This document shows positions 168 to 12,946 of a stretch of 17,467 nt of DNA, piece by piece. Position numbers and translations under genes: made by a program. The notes beneath the pieces were generated by a model that had not been told where the DNA came from, ran no database searches, and saw only the letters and a program-made list of their open reading frames with translations. Each line of letters opens with the position of its first letter. Position 1 is the stretch's first letter. Source of the DNA: an uncultured Phaeodactylibacter sp. (GTDB lineage Bacteria; Bacteroidota; Bacteroidia; Chitinophagales; Saprospiraceae); NCBI GenBank assembly GCA_913062745.1, contig CAJXXJ010000012.1, positions 1-17,467 on the forward strand. The letters are read 5' to 3'.

Positions 168-3100
168 ATGACCATAAAGACGACATTATTTGCAGTATTG
201 CTGTTGTTGGCAGGAGCACTGCCTGCACAGCAAAACTTCTGGTCGGATGCCGACCTGCGCAATTTAGATCAGACGCTGGCGCAGGAGCGCCTCTTCAAGG
301 TAACTAACTTCCGGGCGCAGCAGCTGAATACTACAGCTATGAAAGCTGCTCTGCGTAATGCCCCGCTGGAGGGTGCCGCAGAAACTCCGCTGCAACTGGC
401 TTTCCCTATGCCAAACGGCGGATACAAAACCTTTGAAGTAGTCGAGACACAGGTAATGGCGCCTGGCCTCGCTGCCCGCTATCCCGGCATTAAAACCTAC
501 AAGGGCTGGAATCCGGAAGACCGCCGCGAAACCCTACGCTTCGGCCATTCTCATAAGGGCTTTTACGCTACTATCCTGGACAAGGAGGGCGCAGTCTATA
601 TCGATGGGCTCTCCGCAGAGAATCCGGACGCCTACATGAGCTACTACGTTAAGGACAACCCCAACCCGGGGCTGCGTAATGGCTTTATTTGTGAAAAAGA
701 CCCGAATGAGGATGATGAGCCGGGAGTGTACGAAGGTGATGTCATTACCCCCCGCTCCGGCAACTCCGGGCAGGTCACCCTGCGTACCTACCGGGCCGCA
801 ATTGCCGTAACCGGAGAGTATACGATGTTCCACGGCGGTTCCGTAGCGGATGGCCTGGCAGCGGTGGTGCAAAAAGTCAACCGCCTTAATCAGGTGTTTG
901 TACGCGACCTGGCAGTACGGCTGCAACTGGTAGAAGACAATGACCAGCTCATCTTTACCGACCCGGATGAAGATGACATGAGCAATGGCAATACCGGTAA
1001 CCTTCTGGCGGAAGTCTCTGGTATTATCAACCCTATTATCGGCTTTGATAACTACGATGTGGGACACGTGCTAAATGTCCACGGCGACTTCGTTGGAAAC
1101 GGTGTAGCCAATCTTCAATCAGTTTGTACCATAAATAAAGCAAGGGGCGTATCCGGTATTACTCTACCGCAGGGCGACCCCTTCGTCATTGATATCATTG
1201 CCCACGAGTTCGGGCATCAGTTTGGTGCTACCCACACCATGAATAGCTGCCAAAACGTAGAGCCTTCCACCGCCTTCGAACCGGGCAGTGGCAGTACCAT
1301 CATGGGGTACGCGGGTATCTGCGGCTCTGCGAACAACGTGCAGGATTTCACCAACGACAACTTCCATACCATCTCCCTGCAGCAAATTTATCAGTTCACC
1401 CGTGAGGGTAGCGGCGATGGATGCCCGGAGAAAACACCTTTGGACAATACAAATCCGGAGGTAAGTATTCCGTTGCAAAACGGTTTCTATATCCCTACGA
1501 GCACTCCTTTCGAGCTGACTGCCAACGCAACGGATGCAGAGGATACCGACCTGACGTACTGCTGGGAACAATTTAACCTTGGCCCCAACAACGTAGGCCT
1601 GGGCAATCCGCAGGAAAACAGCCCGCTCTTCCGTTCCCTGAAGCCTACTGCTTCTCCAACCCGGGTGTTCCCGCGTTTGTCTGTACTGACCAGCATTAAC
1701 CCTAACAGCGACCCGGCAGCAATCCTGCCGGCCTACGAGCGCAACATGACCTTCCGCTGTACCGTGCGGGACAATAACGAAACCGGTGGCGGTGTCTCCT
1801 GGGAAGCAGTTTCCTTTGAAGTGGACGGCAATGCCGGACCTTTCCGCGTGCAGGTGCCCAATGAATTGAATACAGAGTGGAAAGTCGGCGATTACCAGGA
1901 GGTACGCTGGGACGTAGCCAATACGGACAACAGCCGCGTAAATTGCCAGACGGTAAATATTCTGCTTTCCATTGATGGTGGGTTCACTTACCCTTTTGTG
2001 CTCGCGGAAAATGTGCCCAATGATGGCAGCCACTTCATCACCGTGCCCGATGCGCTGAGCGACGATGCCCGTATCCGCGTGGAAGCGGCTGACAATATCT
2101 TTTTTGATATCAGCGACCGCGACTTCGATATCGTGCCGGCCACCGAGCCTGGCTACACTTTCGGTATCACACCGGAAAACCTGCAACTGCTCTGCTTGCC
2201 AACGGAACCGGTAGAAGTGGAAATCAATACGCAGTCTATTTTGGGCTTCGACAGCACGCTGACGCTGAGCATCCTGGGCGTCCTGCCGGGAGATGTGGAA
2301 GCGAGCCTGGAGTCAGATCAACTGATGCCGGGAGAAAGCACTACCCTTACTCTCGATGTGCCGCAGTTTGGCTTTGACCGCGATACGTTTGCATTACAGC
2401 TGCAGGCTATTGCCGAAAATGGCGATACTTCCCTGCGCGATCTGCGGGTCATTGTACAAAACAACAACTTCTCCGATATGCAGCTGGTGTCACCCGTAGA
2501 TGGTGTAAGCGATATCGTATTTACTACCGACTTTATGTGGGAGGGTTCGGAAAGCGCCAATTCCTACGATATTGAAATTGCAACTGAACCGACCTTTACC
2601 GAAGACGTACTGGTCGAATCCGCTACAGCGCTTGTGGATACGCTATACGAACCGGATGCCCTCTTCGATGCCGGCGAAACCTACTTCTGGCGGGTCCGCC
2701 CCGTCAACGAATGCGGGCCGGCAGACTTCCTGACGCCTTCTGTTTTCAAAGGCGCCTCCGTAGATTGTGAGGAATCTCCTGCCGGCGATACACCGATAAC
2801 ACTTCCGGCCAGCAGCGTAGAACGCCGCTCCACCATCTTCGTGGAACAGGAAGGCACCATCAGCGACATCAACGTCAAGGAAATGGAGATCATTTACTCT
2901 CCTATCAACGCACTGCAAGTATCACTGATCAGCCCATCGGGTACTGAGGTACTGCTGTTCGATCAGTCCTGCCTCAATACCACCCTGCTGCGTGCTTCTT
3001 TTGATGATGATGCTCCCGATGATATCAATTGCCCGCCCATCACCTTTGCGCCGGTAACTCCGGAAGAGCCTCTGGCTGCTTTCGAAGGGGAAAGCACCTT

Positions 3101-3812
3101 TGGCGAGGGGGAGCTGGTCGTGAACATCGCATCAAGTGGCAGCGGCGGATCTATTTCCAAGTGGAGCCTGGAGTTCTGTGCGGCTATCACCCCGGTGAGC
3201 CCGGTGCTGCTGGTGAATGAAGTTCTGGAAGTACGCCCGGGCGGTAGCAACCCGATTACAGCAGACTTGCTTTCCGCTGAAAAGGAAAATACCCCTGCGC
3301 AGTTTGTCGAGTACATGATTACGGAAATGCCGGAGCACGGACAGCTGTTCCGCGGCGGAATAGAGCTGCAGGTAGGCGATGAGTTTACCCAGCAGACCAT
3401 CAATGCCCTTAACCTGCTCTACGTGCACGACGGCGGCGATGCCACTACGGATCAGTTCGCTTTTGTCATCAACGATGATGAGGGAGGCTTGGTGCCTACG
3501 GAAATCTTCAACATTAATATTCTTGAAGACGCAATCGTCAACACCAGAGTAATCAGCCTGGAAGAGCGCCTCAAGGTATACCCGAACCCGGCTCAAAACG
3601 TACTCAATATCCACTTTGGAGAAACCGTACCGGGAGAGGTTGCGCTCCGGCTTGTCAACCTGCAGGGGCAAATGCTCCGTCAGCAGGAGCTGCAGAACCC
3701 CGGCGGCAACTGGCAGCTTGACCTGAGCAACCTGCCCACCGGGCTGTATCTGCTGCAACTGCAGTCAGAGGAAGGTTTGGTGAGCCGCAAAATTGTGATT
3801 CAGCAACCGTAA
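168..3812 (+). CDS. secreted reprolysin-like zinc metalloprotease with T9SS sorting domain
   Basis: A 1214-residue secreted protease. Residues 1-20 form a clear signal peptide (ending near Leu-Pro-Ala-Gln), which fixes the ATG at 168. A propeptide-like region runs to about 205. The metzincin catalytic domain follows at about 207-425, with the zinc site HEFGHQFGATH (His346, Glu347, His350, His356) and a Met-turn at Met379. Further on are beta-sandwich modules, a fibronectin III-like domain (about 770-862), a proprotein convertase P-domain-like region (about 867-1007) and a CSPG/cadherin-like repeat (about 1013-1119). Residues 1135-1214 are a type A T9SS C-terminal sorting domain starting with the VYPNP motif. 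All catalytic residues are present, so the protein should be active after export by T9SS. The substrate cannot be told from sequence; protein degradation or host or prey matrix attack are possible. It stands alone, with a strong terminator behind it. Confidence 0.92.
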   Translation: MTIKTTLFAVLLLLAGALPAQQNFWSDADLRNLDQTLAQERLFKVTNFRAQQLNTTAMKAALRNAPLEGAAETPLQLAFPMPNGGYKTFEVVETQVMAPGLAARYPGIKTYKGWNPEDRRETLRFGHSHKGFYATILDKEGAVYIDGLSAENPDAYMSYYVKDNPNPGLRNGFICEKDPNEDDEPGVYEGDVITPRSGNSGQVTLRTYRAAIAVTGEYTMFHGGSVADGLAAVVQKVNRLNQVFVRDLAVRLQLVEDNDQLIFTDPDEDDMSNGNTGNLLAEVSGIINPIIGFDNYDVGHVLNVHGDFVGNGVANLQSVCTINKARGVSGITLPQGDPFVIDIIAHEFGHQFGATHTMNSCQNVEPSTAFEPGSGSTIMGYAGICGSANNVQDFTNDNFHTISLQQIYQFTREGSGDGCPEKTPLDNTNPEVSIPLQNGFYIPTSTPFELTANATDAEDTDLTYCWEQFNLGPNNVGLGNPQENSPLFRSLKPTASPTRVFPRLSVLTSINPNSDPAAILPAYERNMTFRCTVRDNNETGGGVSWEAVSFEVDGNAGPFRVQVPNELNTEWKVGDYQEVRWDVANTDNSRVNCQTVNILLSIDGGFTYPFVLAENVPNDGSHFITVPDALSDDARIRVEAADNIFFDISDRDFDIVPATEPGYTFGITPENLQLLCLPTEPVEVEINTQSILGFDSTLTLSILGVLPGDVEASLESDQLMPGESTTLTLDVPQFGFDRDTFALQLQAIAENGDTSLRDLRVIVQNNNFSDMQLVSPVDGVSDIVFTTDFMWEGSESANSYDIEIATEPTFTEDVLVESATALVDTLYEPDALFDAGETYFWRVRPVNECGPADFLTPSVFKGASVDCEESPAGDTPITLPASSVERRSTIFVEQEGTISDINVKEMEIIYSPINALQVSLISPSGTEVLLFDQSCLNTTLLRASFDDDAPDDINCPPITFAPVTPEEPLAAFEGESTFGEGELVVNIASSGSGGSISKWSLEFCAAITPVSPVLLVNEVLEVRPGGSNPITADLLSAEKENTPAQFVEYMITEMPEHGQLFRGGIELQVGDEFTQQTINALNLLYVHDGGDATTDQFAFVINDDEGGLVPTEIFNINILEDAIVNTRVISLEERLKVYPNPAQNVLNIHFGETVPGEVALRLVNLQGQMLRQQELQNPGGNWQLDLSNLPTGLYLLQLQSEEGLVSRKIVIQQP

Positions 3813-6013: not shown

Positions 6014-9000
6014 ATGCTTTTTATGAGAGTAGGCATCTTCTTTGGCGGGCCGTCCCGCGAGCGTGAAACCTCCTTCATCATCGGGCGTACCGTATTTGAC
6101 AAGCTGGACCGCGCCCTGTTTGAACCGGTCCCGCTCTTTGTGGACAGCTACGGGCAGGTGATCCATCTGAACTGGAGATACCTCTACAAACGTAGCATCC
6201 AGGATTTTTTCCCGCCAGTGGAAGCCCTGCCGGAGCCTGAATTTCCCACCTATCAGGAAAGCCTGGCCGAGAGGAGCGAGGAAGGAATGGACGCTTTGCG
6301 CGAAAAGGTAGGCCGCCCGCTTGCCTGGTCGCGCCTTGCGGAGCATATTGACCTCGCTTTCGTTACCCTGCCCGGTGAAGTGGTGGCCGGGGAGAGCCTG
6401 CACCAGAAGCTGGAAAAGCTCGGCATCCCTTACACCGGAAGCAACGGCAAAGTGTGCCGCCTCTCTGCTGACCAGTCCCTCTTCCGCGAATTGCTCGGCC
6501 CGCAGGGGCTCTACCAGCCCCCTGCCATTACGCTGAACCGGCAGGAATGGCTGCAGGGCAAGCCCGGTGAACTGTATCAGCGCCTGCAGGATGAAGTCGG
6601 ATTACCCTGCATCATCCGGCCGGCAACAGCCACCAATGCCTGTGGTGCCACTGCGCTCGAGGAAGCTTCCGGGCTGGAAGACTTCGAACTGGCCGTCAAC
6701 CGGGCATTCTTCCGGGAGCTGATCCCGCTGGTGGAATGGAAGGACCGCAGTGCATACGAACGCGAAGAGTACATCCGCCTGCTGAGCGACCTGAAAGATG
6801 GGCTGGGTTTCCCGGTTCATCTCAGCTACCAGGAAGAAAAGCGCGTTTTTCTCAGCCCCAAAGCACTGCTCGAATACCTCAATGAGCAATCAGAAGCCGG
6901 AGGAGATGCCGATATCTTTCTGCTAGAGCGGCAGCCCGGCGAGTCGCGTATTCTGATCGAAGCTAAAGTGCAGGGCCAGGCTTTTGCCTGTACGGTCTTA
7001 GGCTCTGGTGAGAAGGATGCAGCAGCTCTGCTGCCCATGCCGATTATGCGTGGCACGGGACAGTACGGTACACGGGTAGTGGATGAGGTGGCCGCTCCGT
7101 TCACCGCTGAGCAGGCAGCGGCCATTCAGCAAGCCTGCGAAAAAGTATTCCTGGCGATGGGCATGCAGGTGTTTGCACAGGCAGAAGGCCTGCTGACCGA
7201 AGAAGGGCAGGTATACCTGGCGCATTTGCACCCGGCACTGCCGCTGCTGCCTGAATCGCCGGTATTCACACAAGCGGCTGATATCGCTCTCAGCCCTACT
7301 GCCCTGATGACCTTCATGATCCGGGCCTCTATCGATGATCAGTCTGTAGCGCCGGAAGATCTGGCTGCACTGGACCAAAAAATATCCGCTCACCGGGCGC
7401 GGGTAGAGAAAGCAATCGTTTTGCTGGATGAGCGCGCGCTTCAGCGGCCCGATAATCAGGCGAATGGCCGTCATATCTTCGAGCTGCTGGATGCGGCTGT
7501 AGCTTACGCCCCGCGGCTGGCGATGCATTCCGGCGACCGCAACGCACCGGACTTCCGTCAGGTGCCGTTATCCGTCCTTTACGGCTCGGCAGCAGCATAC
7601 AATGCTCCGGAAAGCATGGAGCAACTACGGCAGCGTACTGCTCCGCTAACAGAGGCCTACTCCAATCAGCGGGTGCTGGCCCCGGAATCTTACCCGCTGG
7701 AGCGCTGGAGCAAAGATCAGGTAGCCGCGGTGTTCATTGCCGGCGAAGAAAAGCCGGGCTGGCTGCGGTGGTCCCTGAAAGAAGCCGGGCTGCCGCACAG
7801 CGGGACCAAGAGCAAATCCTCCGAATTGGGGGAAGATTACTACAAAGTAGTGCAGACTTTGCGCCGCAACGGTTTGAAAGGGCCTTCACAGCTGCTGCTT
7901 ACCCGGAAAGCCTACGAAAAGGACGGTGCTGCTTTCTTCGAGCGTATTGAAAGCCAACTGGCCTATCCGCTCGTCGCAAAGCTGGCAGACCGAAAGAGCG
8001 GAGCAACCGCACGCCGTATTGAAAACCGGGCAGAACTGGAAGCCTACACCCGCCTGACCTTCCGCCCTGCCGAAGAGATGGGGAGTGAAGCGCGGCGGAT
8101 CCTGGGCCTGAAGAGCGGAGCGCATATGCCCCGCCGGGATACGCTGTTGGTGGAAGAAGCAATCAGCGACAAAGGGGCGGTAAGATTTTTGGAAATTCAG
8201 GGGAGCATCATTACCCACTTCGAGGCAGACGGCAGCCTGCGCTATGAACTCTTTGAGCCGGCGGAGCGGCTGCCTGCCGAGGCACAGCGCCCCCCGCAAA
8301 CGGAAACCTTCGTTTCGGCAGACGGGTACTTGCTGACGCCTGCCCGCTTTTCCGACCGCCCGGAGGAGCAGCGGGCGATCAGCAGCGAAGTGAAAAAAGA
8401 AATTGAGAAAGCCGCCCGTACCCTCAACCTGCAAGGCTACGCTACGCTTGAGGCTATGGTGCGGGTGTACGAAGACCAGAGCGTGGATACCATCATCACC
8501 GGCGTAGACCCGCTGCCTTCTCTGGCTACCGGCAGCGTGTTTTTCCAGCAGGCGGTCTACCGGGGGTATACGCCCGAGACGCTGATGCGCGCCATTCTGG
8601 TATTTGGGCAGGAGCGCGAGGAGCTTGCGGCTTCCCGGGCTGCGCGCCGCGAGGCTTACGACACTAAAACGGAAAGCGCTACTCCGGCCTATCAGCCACC
8701 GGCAGCAGCAGCGGCATCCGTTGCACCTGAAGTACCATCTGCAGACAGGGGGGGCAGGCAGGGCTACAAGCAGCCCACTGGCGAATACCTGAAGGAAAGA
8801 GCGGGAGTGGTGGCTAAAGAGGTTGCGCGCTTCTTTAGGAATGGGTTCGTGCTGCGCAATTTGCTGGGCATCATCGCTATGGTCGTTCTTTCCCTTTTGG
8901 CGGTGCGCTGGTCCTTAAGCCTCTACACCAATCACGGAGAGTCTATTCAGGTGCCGGATTTTACCGGTATGGATGTGCGGGACGCTCAGCGCAAAGCGGA

Positions 9001-9685
9001 AAAGCAGGATTTTCGGATTGTCGTCATTGATTCCTTCTTCGATTCCGGCAAACGGCCGAATACCATCTACCAGCAAAGCCCGGACCCGCTGCAGCGGGCG
9101 AAAGAGGGGCGCACCATTTACGTAAGTAAGTACCGGGTGCTGGCAGATTCTGTGCTGCTGCCGTCTCTCATCAGCGCAGGCTACAATTACGATCAGTACA
9201 GCATCAAGCTGAAGCGCCGGGACATCGAGCCGGTAGTGAAGGAACGCGTATTTGACAATAAGCAGGAAGCCAACAGTATCCTGTATTTTTACCATAAAGG
9301 CAGAAAGATTACCGAGGATATGCTCAAGCGGGGCGTCAAGGTGCCAAAAGGGGCAACCCTTGAATTTGTCATCACAGAACGCATCACCGATAATGTGCCT
9401 ATCCCCGACCTGGTCTGCAAGCGCTACGATGCTGCCGCCTTTTTAGTGACAAGCTCCGATCTGACCATAGGGGAGACCATCGGTGCCGACGGCAGTACTC
9501 AGGGCACCTACGTCTACCGGCAGGAGCCGGCCTTTGAAGCGGGCAAAATGGTGCCCAAGGGCACAGCCGTCACGCTGTACCTGTCGCCTGACCGGCCTGC
9601 AGGCTGCGCATCAGGGTCAATGCCCGGCGAAGATGCCTACGAAGAAGAGGATAACCCTCTCGAAGAAGGGGATGAAGATTTTTAA
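6014..9685 (+). CDS. tandem Ddl-like pseudoenzyme fused to a TM helix and three PASTA domains
   Basis: A 1223-residue fusion. Residues 4-440 resemble D-Ala-D-Ala ligase: an FFGGPSRERE start, a GIPYTGS turn, and an ATP-grasp fold with an insert at about 245-305. Residues 565-865 are a second, more divergent Ddl-like module. A Pro/Ala-rich linker (about 890-915) and a basic stretch precede one transmembrane helix (about 945-966). PASTA domains follow at about 977-1040, 1044-1121 and 1127-1192, then an acidic tail. Most E. coli DdlB catalytic positions are changed: in module 1 His63 is Pro120, Arg255 is Ala388, Asp257 is Ala390, and Glu270/Asn272 are His404/His406. In module 2 Arg255 is Thr811 and Glu270/Asn272 are Gly830/Asp832. 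Lys656 keeps the ATP lysine; module 1 has Arg202 there. Ligase activity is therefore unlikely. Inferred role: a wall sensor, with PASTA domains outside binding muropeptides and the Ddl-like part inside. ATG 6014 is used; ATG 6023 is also possible. Confidence 0.85.
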   Translation: MLFMRVGIFFGGPSRERETSFIIGRTVFDKLDRALFEPVPLFVDSYGQVIHLNWRYLYKRSIQDFFPPVEALPEPEFPTYQESLAERSEEGMDALREKVGRPLAWSRLAEHIDLAFVTLPGEVVAGESLHQKLEKLGIPYTGSNGKVCRLSADQSLFRELLGPQGLYQPPAITLNRQEWLQGKPGELYQRLQDEVGLPCIIRPATATNACGATALEEASGLEDFELAVNRAFFRELIPLVEWKDRSAYEREEYIRLLSDLKDGLGFPVHLSYQEEKRVFLSPKALLEYLNEQSEAGGDADIFLLERQPGESRILIEAKVQGQAFACTVLGSGEKDAAALLPMPIMRGTGQYGTRVVDEVAAPFTAEQAAAIQQACEKVFLAMGMQVFAQAEGLLTEEGQVYLAHLHPALPLLPESPVFTQAADIALSPTALMTFMIRASIDDQSVAPEDLAALDQKISAHRARVEKAIVLLDERALQRPDNQANGRHIFELLDAAVAYAPRLAMHSGDRNAPDFRQVPLSVLYGSAAAYNAPESMEQLRQRTAPLTEAYSNQRVLAPESYPLERWSKDQVAAVFIAGEEKPGWLRWSLKEAGLPHSGTKSKSSELGEDYYKVVQTLRRNGLKGPSQLLLTRKAYEKDGAAFFERIESQLAYPLVAKLADRKSGATARRIENRAELEAYTRLTFRPAEEMGSEARRILGLKSGAHMPRRDTLLVEEAISDKGAVRFLEIQGSIITHFEADGSLRYELFEPAERLPAEAQRPPQTETFVSADGYLLTPARFSDRPEEQRAISSEVKKEIEKAARTLNLQGYATLEAMVRVYEDQSVDTIITGVDPLPSLATGSVFFQQAVYRGYTPETLMRAILVFGQEREELAASRAARREAYDTKTESATPAYQPPAAAAASVAPEVPSADRGGRQGYKQPTGEYLKERAGVVAKEVARFFRNGFVLRNLLGIIAMVVLSLLAVRWSLSLYTNHGESIQVPDFTGMDVRDAQRKAEKQDFRIVVIDSFFDSGKRPNTIYQQSPDPLQRAKEGRTIYVSKYRVLADSVLLPSLISAGYNYDQYSIKLKRRDIEPVVKERVFDNKQEANSILYFYHKGRKITEDMLKRGVKVPKGATLEFVITERITDNVPIPDLVCKRYDAAAFLVTSSDLTIGETIGADGSTQGTYVYRQEPAFEAGKMVPKGTAVTLYLSPDRPAGCASGSMPGEDAYEEEDNPLEEGDEDF

Positions 9686-9712
9686 ACCATGTATAAACTA
9701 GAAGTAATCGAG

Positions 9713-10186
9713 ATGAGGAATGTATGCATTTGGTTGGTGGCAATGCTGGCTACTTTTTCAGCCTGTGACAGCACACAGCGGGAGTACGATCAACTGATGG
9801 GAGAATACGACCGGATCAAAGCAGGGGTGGAACAGCAACAACAGCAGTATGTGCAGATGCGGGCGGATTACGATGAGCTGCGGGCGCAGTACGACGGGCA
9901 AGACAACAAAATAGGGGAGGACTCGCTGCATACGACTATCCGGGAGCAGCACGATATCCTGCTGGAAGCCCATGCTGCCTATCAGAAACGGGCGGAAGAA
10001 ATTCTGCAGCTCAACCAGGATATCTTCAAGCGGCATGAGGTAGAAGATTACCCTATCGAAAACGTCCGTGCCGACTTTAAAGAATTGAATGCGAATATGG
10101 TCAAGCTGAATGATTACTACAATAACATCACGAACGAAATCATTCACATGCTTGATGAACAGCAGGGGATGCTGCAGGATTTATAG
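9713..10186 (+). CDS. coiled-coil lipoprotein of unknown function
   Basis: A 157-residue protein. Residues 1-17 are a lipoprotein signal peptide with the lipobox ending Phe-Ser-Ala-Cys18, so the mature protein is predicted to be lipid-anchored in the cell envelope. The rest is strongly charged, rich in Gln, Glu, Asp and Tyr with heptad-like spacing, and almost certainly forms long helices or coiled coils (about 20-80 and 85-155). The family is not recognised. The ATG at 9713 is preferred over an in-frame ATG at 9689, because it places the signal peptide at the N-terminus. The gene starts 27 bases after the Ddl-PASTA gene and is probably co-transcribed with it. A role as an envelope spacer or a partner of the PASTA protein is only a guess. 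Confidence 0.75.
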   Translation: MRNVCIWLVAMLATFSACDSTQREYDQLMGEYDRIKAGVEQQQQQYVQMRADYDELRAQYDGQDNKIGEDSLHTTIREQHDILLEAHAAYQKRAEEILQLNQDIFKRHEVEDYPIENVRADFKELNANMVKLNDYYNNITNEIIHMLDEQQGMLQDL

Positions 10187-10221: not shown

Positions 10222-10617
10222 ATGATGGAGAAGGACGCATCGAGAAATGTATTCGGAGAACCCCTGCAAGCTTGTTGCATGGACCCGATGACTGGTTTTT
10301 ACCGGGATGGGCACTGCAATACCGGGCCGCAGGACCGCGGGACACATGTAGTATGTGCCCGGATGACGGAAGCGTTTTTGCAGTTTACCAAAGCCCGCGG
10401 GAATGACCTCAGCACGCCTGTGCCGATGTACAACTTCCCGGGGCTGAAGCCGGGAGACGGCTGGTGCCTGTGTGCGTTGCGGTGGAAGGAGGCTCATAAG
10501 GCGGGCGTTGCTCCTCCGGTGAAGCTCGAAGCGACACACGAAAAAGCGCTGCAGTACATTGAGATGGATACCCTGCTAAAGTATGCCATCCGCGAAAAAG
10601 ATAATAAGCAGGACTGA
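10222..10617 (+). CDS. DUF2237 family protein
   Basis: A 131-residue cytoplasmic protein of the DUF2237 (COG3651) family, whose biochemical function is unknown. Family features are visible: an N-terminal RNVFGEPLQACC segment, then GFYRDGHCNTG, DRGTHVVCA and a GDGWCLCA motif. The conserved cysteines at about 18-19, 32, 45, 82 and 84 could bind a metal or form a redox site, but that is inference. The length fits the family. Two adjacent ATGs (10222 and 10225) could serve as start; AAGAAGAG just upstream is a good ribosome binding site for either. The gene lies 35 bases after the lipoprotein gene and 53 before the next, in the same orientation. Confidence 0.88.
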   Translation: MMEKDASRNVFGEPLQACCMDPMTGFYRDGHCNTGPQDRGTHVVCARMTEAFLQFTKARGNDLSTPVPMYNFPGLKPGDGWCLCALRWKEAHKAGVAPPVKLEATHEKALQYIEMDTLLKYAIREKDNKQD

Positions 10618-10670: not shown

Positions 10671-12089
10671 ATGCGCCAACTACTGGAAACGGACCAAAAA
10701 GCCCTGGAGATCAACCTCGACCCGGCCATTTACGGCACCTTCGCGGAAATCGGGGCCGGACAGGAAGTCGCCCGTTATTTCTTTCAGGTGGGAGCTGCCG
10801 CAGGCACAATCGCCAAGACGATGTCCGCCTACGACAAAACCTACTCAGACCAAATCTACGGGGAGGAAGCCTCGGGCCGCTACGTCTGCGAAGCCCGGCT
10901 GTACAAAATGCTCAACCACGAGTACGAACTGATGCGTACCCGCCTTAGCAACGAGCGGCCGGATACCAATTTCTTCGTATTTGCGGATACCGTTGCTGCC
11001 ATCAACTATCAGCGGACCATCAAAGGGAATGGCTGGCTGGGCATCCGTTTCCAGTTGCACCCCGAAGGCGGTACCAATGACCTGGTCCTGCACGTGCGTA
11101 TGCTGGACAATGATAATCAGCTGCAGCAGCAGGCCATCGGCATTCTGGGCGTCAACCTGATTTACGCCTGCTTCCGTTTTAATCAGGATCCGGAAACGTT
11201 GCTCCAATCCTTAATGGATGGCCTGCACGGCAGGGTGAAGATCGATATGGTCCGGCTGACCGGGGCAGATTTTGCGGAACTCGACAACCGTCTGCTTAGC
11301 CTCTGGATGGTGAAAAACGGGTTGACCGACGTAGCGATGTTTGGGCCTGACCGGCAGAATCTTCACCCCTCAGAGTTCCTGTACAAAAGGCACGTGATGA
11401 TGGTACGGGGCAGCTTCCGCCCGGCTACGCTGGTGAACTTGGATATGATCAACGCCAGCTTTCAGCAGTTCCGCAACGCCTCAGAGACAGACCCCCGCAA
11501 AACGTTTTTGCTTACTGAGATTACGCTGGACAACCTGCGCAGCAGCGGTGAGCTTGACGAGCAGGATTTTCTGGACCGTGCCGAATTGCTCAACGCGCTG
11601 GGGCAAACCGTAGTCATCTCGGATTGCCAGCAGTACCAGAAAATGGTGACTTATCTGGCTGACTTCAAAGTGCAGCAGCTGGCGTTTGCCATGGGCGTAC
11701 GGGAGCTGCTCGACCTGATCAACAATAAATACTACCAGAACCTCGACGGCCGCCTGCTGGCTGCTTTTGGGGAGCTGTTTACCCGCAACGTGAAATTCTA
11801 CGTATACCCGGCTCTGCAGGAAGGCAGTGGAGAGCTGATCACGGCGCAGTCCCTGCCGGTGCCGGAAGGCGTCAAGTTTTTGTATAAACACCTGTTGGAT
11901 AACCGGCAGATTATTGATGTGGAAGGCTTCGACCGCGGGCTGCTGCACATTTTTTCTAAAGAGGTGCTGCGTATGCTGCGCAACAACGAAGACGGCTGGG
12001 AGAGCATGGTGCCGAGTCAGGTTGCCAACCTGATCAGGGAGAAGTACTTGTTCGGCTTTCCTGCGGAACAAATGGAATTTGATTACTAA
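10671..12089 (+). CDS. conserved 472-residue protein of unknown function
   Basis: A 472-residue protein with no signal peptide or obvious membrane helix, so probably cytoplasmic. The N-terminal part has a striking conserved-looking block, FAEIGAGQEVARYFF (about 24-38), then a Gly/Ala-rich GAAAGTIAKTMSAYD (about 42-56). From memory, related proteins occur widely in bacteria and are often auto-labelled nicotinate-nucleotide adenylyltransferase or TonB-dependent receptor. Neither label is supported: there is no HxGH nucleotidyltransferase motif, no plug or barrel, and no signal sequence. The C-terminal two thirds are mixed alpha/beta with no motif I can name. It starts 53 bases after the DUF2237 gene and ends 23 before the M15 peptidase gene, in the same orientation. 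Its function is unknown. Confidence 0.8.
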   Translation: MRQLLETDQKALEINLDPAIYGTFAEIGAGQEVARYFFQVGAAAGTIAKTMSAYDKTYSDQIYGEEASGRYVCEARLYKMLNHEYELMRTRLSNERPDTNFFVFADTVAAINYQRTIKGNGWLGIRFQLHPEGGTNDLVLHVRMLDNDNQLQQQAIGILGVNLIYACFRFNQDPETLLQSLMDGLHGRVKIDMVRLTGADFAELDNRLLSLWMVKNGLTDVAMFGPDRQNLHPSEFLYKRHVMMVRGSFRPATLVNLDMINASFQQFRNASETDPRKTFLLTEITLDNLRSSGELDEQDFLDRAELLNALGQTVVISDCQQYQKMVTYLADFKVQQLAFAMGVRELLDLINNKYYQNLDGRLLAAFGELFTRNVKFYVYPALQEGSGELITAQSLPVPEGVKFLYKHLLDNRQIIDVEGFDRGLLHIFSKEVLRMLRNNEDGWESMVPSQVANLIREKYLFGFPAEQMEFDY

Positions 12090-12112: not shown

Positions 12113-12946
12113 ATGAGTATTCGATCAATTGCCCTGCTTTTTGGCGCAAGCCTGTTATTTTTCAACTGCAGCAACGGGCAGGAAAAAAGCGGTACACAGG
12201 AGACGCCTGCTGATTCCACGCAGCTGCCGCACGAACCGCCTCCCATCAGCCTGGCGCAGCAAGCCCGGGAAGCCGGCTTCGATAAGGATTACCTGACGGG
12301 AAACTTTGAGCCCGCCGAGCATCCCGACTTTGTACGGGTCAGCTCAAAGTATGCCGACCGGGAAGGGCTGTACCTGCGGGAAGATACCTATCAGGCTTTT
12401 TTGCAACTCCGTGAAGCAGCTGCAGCGGCCGGGCATACCCTGGTGATCCGCTCCGCTACCCGGAACTTTGACTACCAAAAGGGAATTTGGGAGCGCAAGT
12501 GGAACGGGCAGCGCACGCTTTCCAGCGGCGAAAACGCAGCAGAGGCTTACCCGGATCCTAAAGAACGGGCACTGCAGATCCTGAAATACAGCTCTATGCC
12601 TGGCACTTCGCGCCACCACTGGGGCACAGATTTCGACATCAACGCCTTCAATAACGAGTATTTTGAATCCGGCAAGGGCAAAGCGTTGTACGAATGGATG
12701 GCGGCGCACGCACATGAGTACGGCTTTTGTCAACCATATACGCCCAAGGGAGAGGCCCGGCCGCACGGTTACAACGAAGAGAAATGGCACTGGTCTTATA
12801 TGCCAATTGCTCAGCCGCTGACTGCTCTGGCAGAGGAAGAGCTGGAAAACAGGGATATTTCCGGATTTGCCGGAGCAGATGTTGCAGAAAGCCTGCTGGT
12901 GGTACAGCGTTATGTGCTGGGGGTCAGCCCTAACTGCCTGCCTTGA
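12113..12946 (+). CDS. M15 family D-Ala-D-Ala carboxypeptidase-like lipoprotein
   Basis: A 277-residue envelope peptidase of the VanY/M15B type, which typically cleaves the terminal D-Ala from peptidoglycan stem peptides. The signal peptide ends at lipobox Cys19 (LLFFNC), so the protein should be a lipoprotein. A low-complexity linker spans about 20-45. The zinc motif SRHHWGTDFD gives ligands His168 and Asp175; Glu223 and His226 (EKWHW) supply the catalytic Glu and third ligand. The set is complete, so the enzyme should be active. It starts 23 bases after the 472-residue protein gene, last in the five-gene run that begins with the Ddl-PASTA fusion; both ends of the run point to D-Ala-D-Ala or cell-wall chemistry. 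Exact substrate specificity (endo- or carboxypeptidase) is not visible. Confidence 0.87.
   Translation: MSIRSIALLFGASLLFFNCSNGQEKSGTQETPADSTQLPHEPPPISLAQQAREAGFDKDYLTGNFEPAEHPDFVRVSSKYADREGLYLREDTYQAFLQLREAAAAAGHTLVIRSATRNFDYQKGIWERKWNGQRTLSSGENAAEAYPDPKERALQILKYSSMPGTSRHHWGTDFDINAFNNEYFESGKGKALYEWMAAHAHEYGFCQPYTPKGEARPHGYNEEKWHWSYMPIAQPLTALAEEELENRDISGFAGADVAESLLVVQRYVLGVSPNCLP

Follow-up and report, generated by a model that had tools for sequence, protein, structure and literature searches.

D-alanine-D-alanine ligase (Ddl), the enzyme that supplies the D-Ala-D-Ala terminus of peptidoglycan precursors, is generally regarded as a soluble homodimer with a single module per chain. The gene considered here occupies positions 6014-9685 on the forward strand of a 17,467-nucleotide stretch of DNA (hereafter the window) from an uncultured Phaeodactylibacter sp. 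of the Saprospiraceae. According to Pfam and a structure model, its single 1223-residue frame combines two Ddl folds, a transmembrane (TM) helix and three PASTA-type repeats. The protein differs from Ddl (PF01820/PF07478, TIGR01205; E. coli DdlB) in having two modules per chain and a membrane anchor, and in having lost most of the catalytic residues. We judge the chances to be somewhat better than even that this gene encodes a membrane-anchored pseudoenzyme, a former two-site Ddl that retains its PASTA role and employs its dead modules as a scaffold or receptor. Two other described systems resemble parts of its layout. Like the window protein, PASTA kinases (PknB, PrkC, Stk1; NF033483) combine a cytoplasmic catalytic-type domain, one TM helix and outer PASTA repeats. 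However, NF033483, the sole PASTA-kinase model in NCBIfam, aligns only with residues 884-1191, which comprise linker, TM helix and PASTA repeats, and its 58.7 bits fall far under the cut-off of 450. The inner part is a ligase pair, and no Ser/Thr kinase domain was found in the Pfam scan or among the NCBIfam matches (25 of 26 families listed). CarB, the large subunit of carbamoyl phosphate synthetase, likewise carries tandem ATP-grasp modules in one chain and was matched by Foldseek, but TM-scores were only 0.33-0.39 for the E. coli chains, with an rmsd of 14-15 Å, and the CarB model scored 17.8 bits against the window sequence (cut-off 599). A structural search with an intact tandem covered module 1 only among the matches listed.

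The two-site Ddl of Bacteroidota, as encoded by Rufibacter glacialis (P0043), Hymenobacter actinosclerus (P0045) and Pontibacter litorisediminis (L163), contains the same modules in the same order as the window protein. Genes of this kind usually lie beside a TM-PASTA gene: a PASTA frame was present on the same fetched stretch for 44/55 non-fused tandem ddl genes of the window's order, some of these stretches being short, and L163 has one as well. Unlike the window protein, these chains end after module 2, and those of R. glacialis and H. actinosclerus have a full set of ten core residues at each site. The latter two are among seven proteins of ~900 aa that have both Ddl modules without PASTA, and all seven keep ten and ten. 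Intact tandem-Ddl/TM-PASTA fusions also occur in the window's own family (genomes G111 and G068; protein P0007). They share the architecture of the window protein but have 10/10 in both sites, and neither G111 nor G068 has a single Ddl above cut-off. A protein database search with the window protein, in which 7991 candidates were scored, yielded 40 other proteins (1133-1306 aa, 70-100% query coverage) with the same fused architecture. Their source names include Saprospiraceae, Lewinellaceae and Phaeodactylibacter, and such proteins are already recorded as D-alanine-D-alanine ligase or PASTA domain-containing protein. The same continuous frame is present in 14 other genomes, one copy ending at a contig edge, and these include four of the five other genomes of the window's genus (G119, G121, G122 and G123); none was found in the fifth, G120, which is 61% complete. 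The first-pass annotation had raised the concern that the frame might have been joined by an assembly error. No point in support of this was found, and the 40 proteins and 14 genomes refute it, leaving it a negligible probability.

We aligned the modules of the intact tandems with E. coli DdlB and with single Ddls from related genomes and compared them, in DdlB numbering, at ten core positions that we take to serve catalysis or the binding of ATP or Mg: E15, K97, K144, S151, E180, K215, R255, D257, E270 and N272, with K or R allowed at 144 and D or E at 270. According to passages of one paper on Ddl, Glu15 and Arg255 lie close to the ligand (PMC5717164). Module 1 of the window protein is left with three of the ten (E16, R202 for K144, and E316) and module 2 with two (K656 and E714), so that it lacks both the catalytic, ATP- and Mg-binding set of a Ddl and the 10/10 of the intact fusion branch and is among the most decayed copies seen. 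Judged by these residues, the window copy looks catalytically dead. Within the set of 41 fused proteins, the window's included, 17 have ten core residues in each site and 24 have losses, ranging from slight (P0014, nine and nine) to near total. The intact tandems display two constant signatures, one per site. Site 1 is DdlB-like except for Asp in place of E270 and Lys or Arg at 144 (Tyr-type), whereas Cys150, Phe216 and Thr281 mark site 2 (Phe-type). Phe at the position of DdlB Y216 is a mark of the D-Ala-D-lactate ligases of lactic acid bacteria. The window protein also scores below the TIGR01205 cut-off (79.6 bits against 245.65) and under that of every NCBIfam Ddl model among the matches listed, but the TIGR01205 shortfall alone does not signify loss of function, since intact tandems from genomes without a single Ddl score below it as well. 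Another interpretation of the altered residues, which we regard as improbable, is that the modules form an active ATP-grasp pair with a different substrate. The Ddl folds are retained, and R202, E316 and E391 in module 1 as well as K656, E714, E813 and D832 in module 2 could still bind phosphate or metal. However, module 1 is changed at the oxyanion Arg, two of three Mg ligands, the omega-loop Lys and the triphosphate-loop Ser, with module 2 largely likewise, and the replacements vary among species within the genus, which is unlike a newly selected site.

The distribution of single and tandem Ddl suggests when catalytic residues are lost. Our sample consisted of 119 genomes of the window's order and 69 relatives, in all 156 different genomes including the window's. 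A single Ddl was defined as a TIGR01205 match above its cut-off, and the tandem was searched separately. Only a single Ddl was found in 74 genomes, only a tandem in 65, both in seven, and neither above cut-off in ten (G014, G062, G073, G077, G078, G092, G118, G120, G131 and G134), although G062, G073, G092, G118 and G134 do have a Ddl match below it. The 65 tandem-only genomes comprise 59 with ten core residues in each site, three with tandems truncated at contig ends (G006, G010 and G148, which are intact where visible and were not scored as degenerate), two that were unread (G051 and G096) and the window's own. Hence, the window aside, every fully read tandem from a genome lacking a single Ddl is intact (59/59), whereas all seven that share a genome with a single Ddl are degenerate (G119, G121, G122, G123, G124, G140 and G142), the first four being members of the window's genus. 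In these seven, module 1 keeps 1-6 of the ten core residues and module 2 keeps 2-10. Eight further Bacteroidota genomes taken from named records of unstated completeness (G156-G163) have the tandem and no separate Ddl above cut-off, the only such flag among them, in G163, being its own tandem frame. In many genomes of the window's order the tandem thus takes the place of the ordinary single Ddl, and decay of the tandem is associated with the presence of a second Ddl. Because its residues are intact and no single Ddl above cut-off occurs alongside it, the cells that carry the tandem alone very probably rely on it as their working Ddl. The single Ddls found alongside degenerate tandems fall into two separated Ddl clades (fork 100/99) and differ in size, with lengths of ~360-420 aa read in g1 and G142 compared to ~327 aa in G124 and G140.

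Despite their losses, the decayed modules still evolve under constraint. Between G119 and G122 (dS about 0.4-0.6), the ratio of nonsynonymous to synonymous substitution (dN/dS) is 0.11 and 0.13 for the two modules, 0.015 for the PASTA half and 0.049 for the neighboring MATE gene. For the window and G121 it is 0.25 and 0.19 for the modules, 0.10 for PASTA and 0.11 for MATE, and for the window and G119 it is 0.34 and 0.39, 0.09 and 0.14, respectively, dS being near saturation in both of these pairs. In the intact fused pair G068/G079, the modules give 0.14 and 0.13 and the PASTA half 0.24. Sequence identity follows the same pattern. Among 15 chosen degenerate sequences, the modules are 40% identical and the PASTA half 60%, with PASTA higher in 103/105 pairs, while among 10 chosen intact fused sequences the modules are 63% identical and the PASTA half 43%, with PASTA higher in 0/45 pairs; the comparisons lack independence, and the sets are of unequal depth. 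It is clear that the conserved half reverses, being PASTA in the degenerate copies and the ligase in the intact fused ones. The main rival to our interpretation, for which we see perhaps one chance in five, draws on this same reversal: only the TM-PASTA half would be functional, and the dead Ddl modules would be vestigial cargo in the process of being lost. The modules of degenerate copies do evolve faster than PASTA, reaching the values just given for the window and G119, and some relatives with a single Ddl, G138 and G017 among them, have the TM-PASTA gene alone, as would be expected once the modules had been lost completely. On the other hand, a neutral stretch of 880 codons located 5' of a needed domain should gather stops and deletions, yet the modules keep an open frame in G119, G121, G122 and G123, the folds of the window protein are confidently predicted, and dN/dS is well below one in 3/3 degenerate pairs (0.11-0.39).

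The ancestry of the two modules can be traced outside of the fusion family. In a midpoint-rooted tree, site 2 forms a clade (100/99) with the second gene of neighboring-gene pairs from other phyla, namely Chloroflexota and Syntrophales, while the site-1 sequences fall among single Ddls without resolving into one clade. The tandem is composed of two anciently different Ddl paralogs, one with a Tyr-type and the other with a Phe-type site. A recent duplication of the modules is ruled out by the placement of site 2 in its own Ddl clade shared with other phyla. The first-pass annotation had envisaged a fusion of neighboring ddl and TM-PASTA genes followed by module duplication. The first step is supported, as such adjacency is common: in single-Ddl genomes of the order, a TM-PASTA match lies ≤250 bp from Ddl in 30/63, to which the non-fused tandems described above can be added. 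The second step has the order wrong, since the unfused tandem is found in many families of the order, whereas the PASTA fusion occurs in 15/70 genomes with a tandem that was read, all of them in the window's family. Neither the catalytic loss in both modules nor the tandem Ddl as an enzyme of its own, built from two ancient paralogs, had been noticed at that stage. Across phyla, the two-site pair is arranged as neighboring genes (Chloroflexota, Syntrophales), as one chain (Bacteroidota, Ca. Uhrbacteria) or as separate genes (Ca. Cardinium). In Ca. Uhrbacteria, a candidate phylum (L170:2971-6508), the fused two-site Ddl is directly followed by an apparent alanine racemase gene. In the Ca. Cardinium record (L169 and L259), the two sites are encoded by separate genes on different contigs with the core catalytic residues kept in both, and the site-2 gene adjoins a TM-PASTA gene.

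Whether decay occurred once or repeatedly depends upon the tree consulted. In trees of the PASTA half, which has itself not decayed, the intact proteins P0007, P0008, P0010 and P0017 are sister to the window's degenerate group (100/98), with other degenerate copies outside; one of these trees includes P0007 alone of the four. Because intact copies are sister to the window's group while other degenerate copies lie elsewhere, the PASTA-half trees indicate that decay probably occurred more than once, unless sites were regained. A single origin of decay is suggested by the module tree but not by the PASTA-half trees. We tentatively place greater trust in the latter, as the module tree joins long, decayed branches. 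Seven decay changes were counted on the PASTA-half tree, but these include G148, which is cut by a contig end, and P0031, whose 7/10 scores depend partly on gaps, and we therefore limit the claim to decay more than once. The module tree, the PASTA-half trees and the identity comparison were all based on chosen subsets of sequences.

Based upon these features, a history of the window gene can be proposed. Its computed basis consists of the Ddl folds, the loss of catalytic residues, the link between that loss and a second Ddl in related genomes, and dN/dS values below one. The ancestor would have been a two-site D-Ala-D-Ala ligase composed of two Ddl paralogs in one chain and serving as the only Ddl found in the genome, as is still the case in many relatives. 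It would then have been fused to the TM-PASTA protein normally encoded beside the ligase gene. In lineages having an ordinary single Ddl, the tandem would have lost catalytic residues, apparently because the ordinary enzyme performs the Ddl job, with the reading frame and the folds retained and the PASTA half most of all. Through its periplasmic PASTA repeats the protein could be kept at nascent peptidoglycan, with the dead ligase pair in the cytoplasm serving as scaffold or receptor, possibly to the single Ddl or to another precursor enzyme. In our estimation, this contribution to precursor supply is its likeliest function, the chances being about even.

Several observations weigh against this history. 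Decay is only partial in some copies, with module 2 retaining 10/10 in G142 and 8/10 in G124, and as a result the degenerate copies are not necessarily all dead. The modules are less constrained in the farther pairs (0.25 and 0.19; 0.34 and 0.39) than between G119 and G122. The module tree, on which all degenerate copies are joined, with their long branches flagged, requires only one fusion change and one decay change. The link between decay and a second Ddl comprises few independent events, and a paired test with two independent pairs (p 0.5) is powerless. Lastly, no single Ddl above the TIGR01205 cut-off was found in the window's own genome, which is 83.6% complete in 874 contigs. If it truly has none, the window protein must be active or D-Ala-D-Ala must be made otherwise. 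This genome encodes a MurF above cut-off and should therefore still need D-Ala-D-Ala, and we predict that a single Ddl resides in its missing part. Eight of its proteins match above a low Pfam cut-off for Ddl, one of them being the fusion protein itself. Of the other seven, five were scanned and gave their best scores as biotin carboxylase, PurK or other ATP-grasp proteins, far under the Ddl cut-offs, while the remaining two resemble carbamoyl-phosphate synthase and a RimK-like protein in their sequence. We take none of the seven to be a Ddl. There are two MurF-like genes in this genome (G000:C528 and G000:C174), one above and one below cut-off, and the latter lies in a 769-aa frame that is possibly a MurF-alanine racemase fusion.

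The architecture of the fusion protein agrees with the first-pass description of two inner Ddl-like modules, a TM helix and three PASTA domains. Met4 (position 6023) is the start codon that agrees with homologs. Both modules have the N-terminal domain and ATP-grasp of the Ddl fold in the structure model and the fold search: module 1, of the site-1 type, spans residues 4-449 (6023-7360) and module 2, of the site-2 type, residues 463-880 (7400-8653). A linker at residues 881-943 (8654-8842) is mostly of low confidence (pLDDT < 50 across residues 888-921) and precedes the predicted TM helix at residues 944-971 (8843-8926), which is apparent in both model and sequence. An Arg/Lys-rich stretch at the N-terminal side of the helix suggests that the Ddl modules are cytoplasmic. 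The PASTA portion, with 70.4 bits against PF03793 (cut-off 23.2) in two stretches, consists of unit 1 at residues 977-1041 (8942-9136), a PASTA-like unit 2 at residues 1042-1123 (9137-9382) that has no Pfam score and is recognized from the secondary structure of the model, and unit 3 at residues 1124-1192 (9383-9589; PF03793 at 9395-9586), units 1 and 3 being evident in the model as well. An acidic C-terminal tail follows at 9590-9682. According to portions of two papers, the outer part of PASTA kinases binds peptidoglycan fragments or lipid II (PMC5786024, PMC6428115), and by analogy the PASTA repeats of the window protein may bind one or the other. The parallel with PASTA kinases is also what favors the idea, put forward in the first-pass annotation, of a wall-to-cytosol sensor in which PASTA binding would alter the state of the Ddl modules and transmit a signal inward. 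We find this doubtful, its support going no further than the architecture: no output domain was found in the Pfam and NCBIfam scans, and since the inner part of intact relatives is an enzyme by its residues, the architecture would seem to tether an enzyme rather than to signal. A second non-kinase PASTA fusion in Bacteroidota was also encountered, in which PASTA is joined to a radical-SAM enzyme resembling CofH/aminodeoxyfutalosine synthase (P0049-P0101, 672-716 aa). The P0049 scan revealed three PASTA stretches, and three source names in this set are Alistipes.

On the forward strand, 3 bp 3' of the fusion gene, lies a gene (9689-10186) for a 165-aa protein of coiled-coil, lipoprotein-like character as read from its sequence, a relative of which (36-41% identity) likewise lies downstream of the fusion in four congeneric genomes. 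It is followed by a DUF2237 protein (10222-10617) and a 472-aa protein (10671-12089) without a Pfam, NCBIfam or PHROG family above cut-off. Compared with G121, these two show 80% and 89% identity, respectively, whereas the fusion gene shows only 54%. A VanY-type D-Ala-D-Ala carboxypeptidase is encoded at 12113-12946, ~2.4 kb downstream of the fusion gene; no VanY-related frame was seen in 19 compared stretches, some of which stop too early to show one. The recurrent neighbors in these stretches were a MATE gene (11/19), a large secreted protein with a sorting-domain-like end (8/19) and a rhodanese-like protein (7/19), the last two named from sequence reading. They say nothing clear on function. 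Elsewhere in the window, a reprolysin-like metalloprotease is encoded at 168-3812, and its further domains (cadherin-like, P-domain and C-terminal sorting) are of the sort seen in type 9 secretion.

More tentatively, the two-site ligase could represent a distinct class of D-Ala-D-X ligase in which a Tyr-type and a Phe-type site form an obligate pair and which replaces ordinary Ddl across much of the order and in other Bacteroidota. Its sites might yield different products or function only as a heterodimer, and in one family it would have been fused to PASTA and repeatedly turned into a dead but conserved, wall-linked scaffold where an ordinary Ddl was at hand. In the open-licence PMC literature, we found no publication on the tandem Ddl, its replacement of ordinary Ddl or its dead form. 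PASTA proteins and Ddl are already known, and the new part would be the tandem, its replacement role and the dead form. In 65 of the 156 genomes of the order sample, as well as in Pontibacter and Rufibacter, a two-site ligase is annotated simply as Ddl; an ordinary Ddl was not found in those of the genomes that were searched. Genetically, and sometimes physically, this ligase is tied to a wall-binding membrane protein. The window protein and its seven counterparts from genomes with a second Ddl would then amount to a natural experiment in which the catalytic half decays while the wall-binding half becomes the conserved one. This may render two questions testable: what job a PASTA anchor performs without a kinase, and why a two-site Ddl needs both of its sites.

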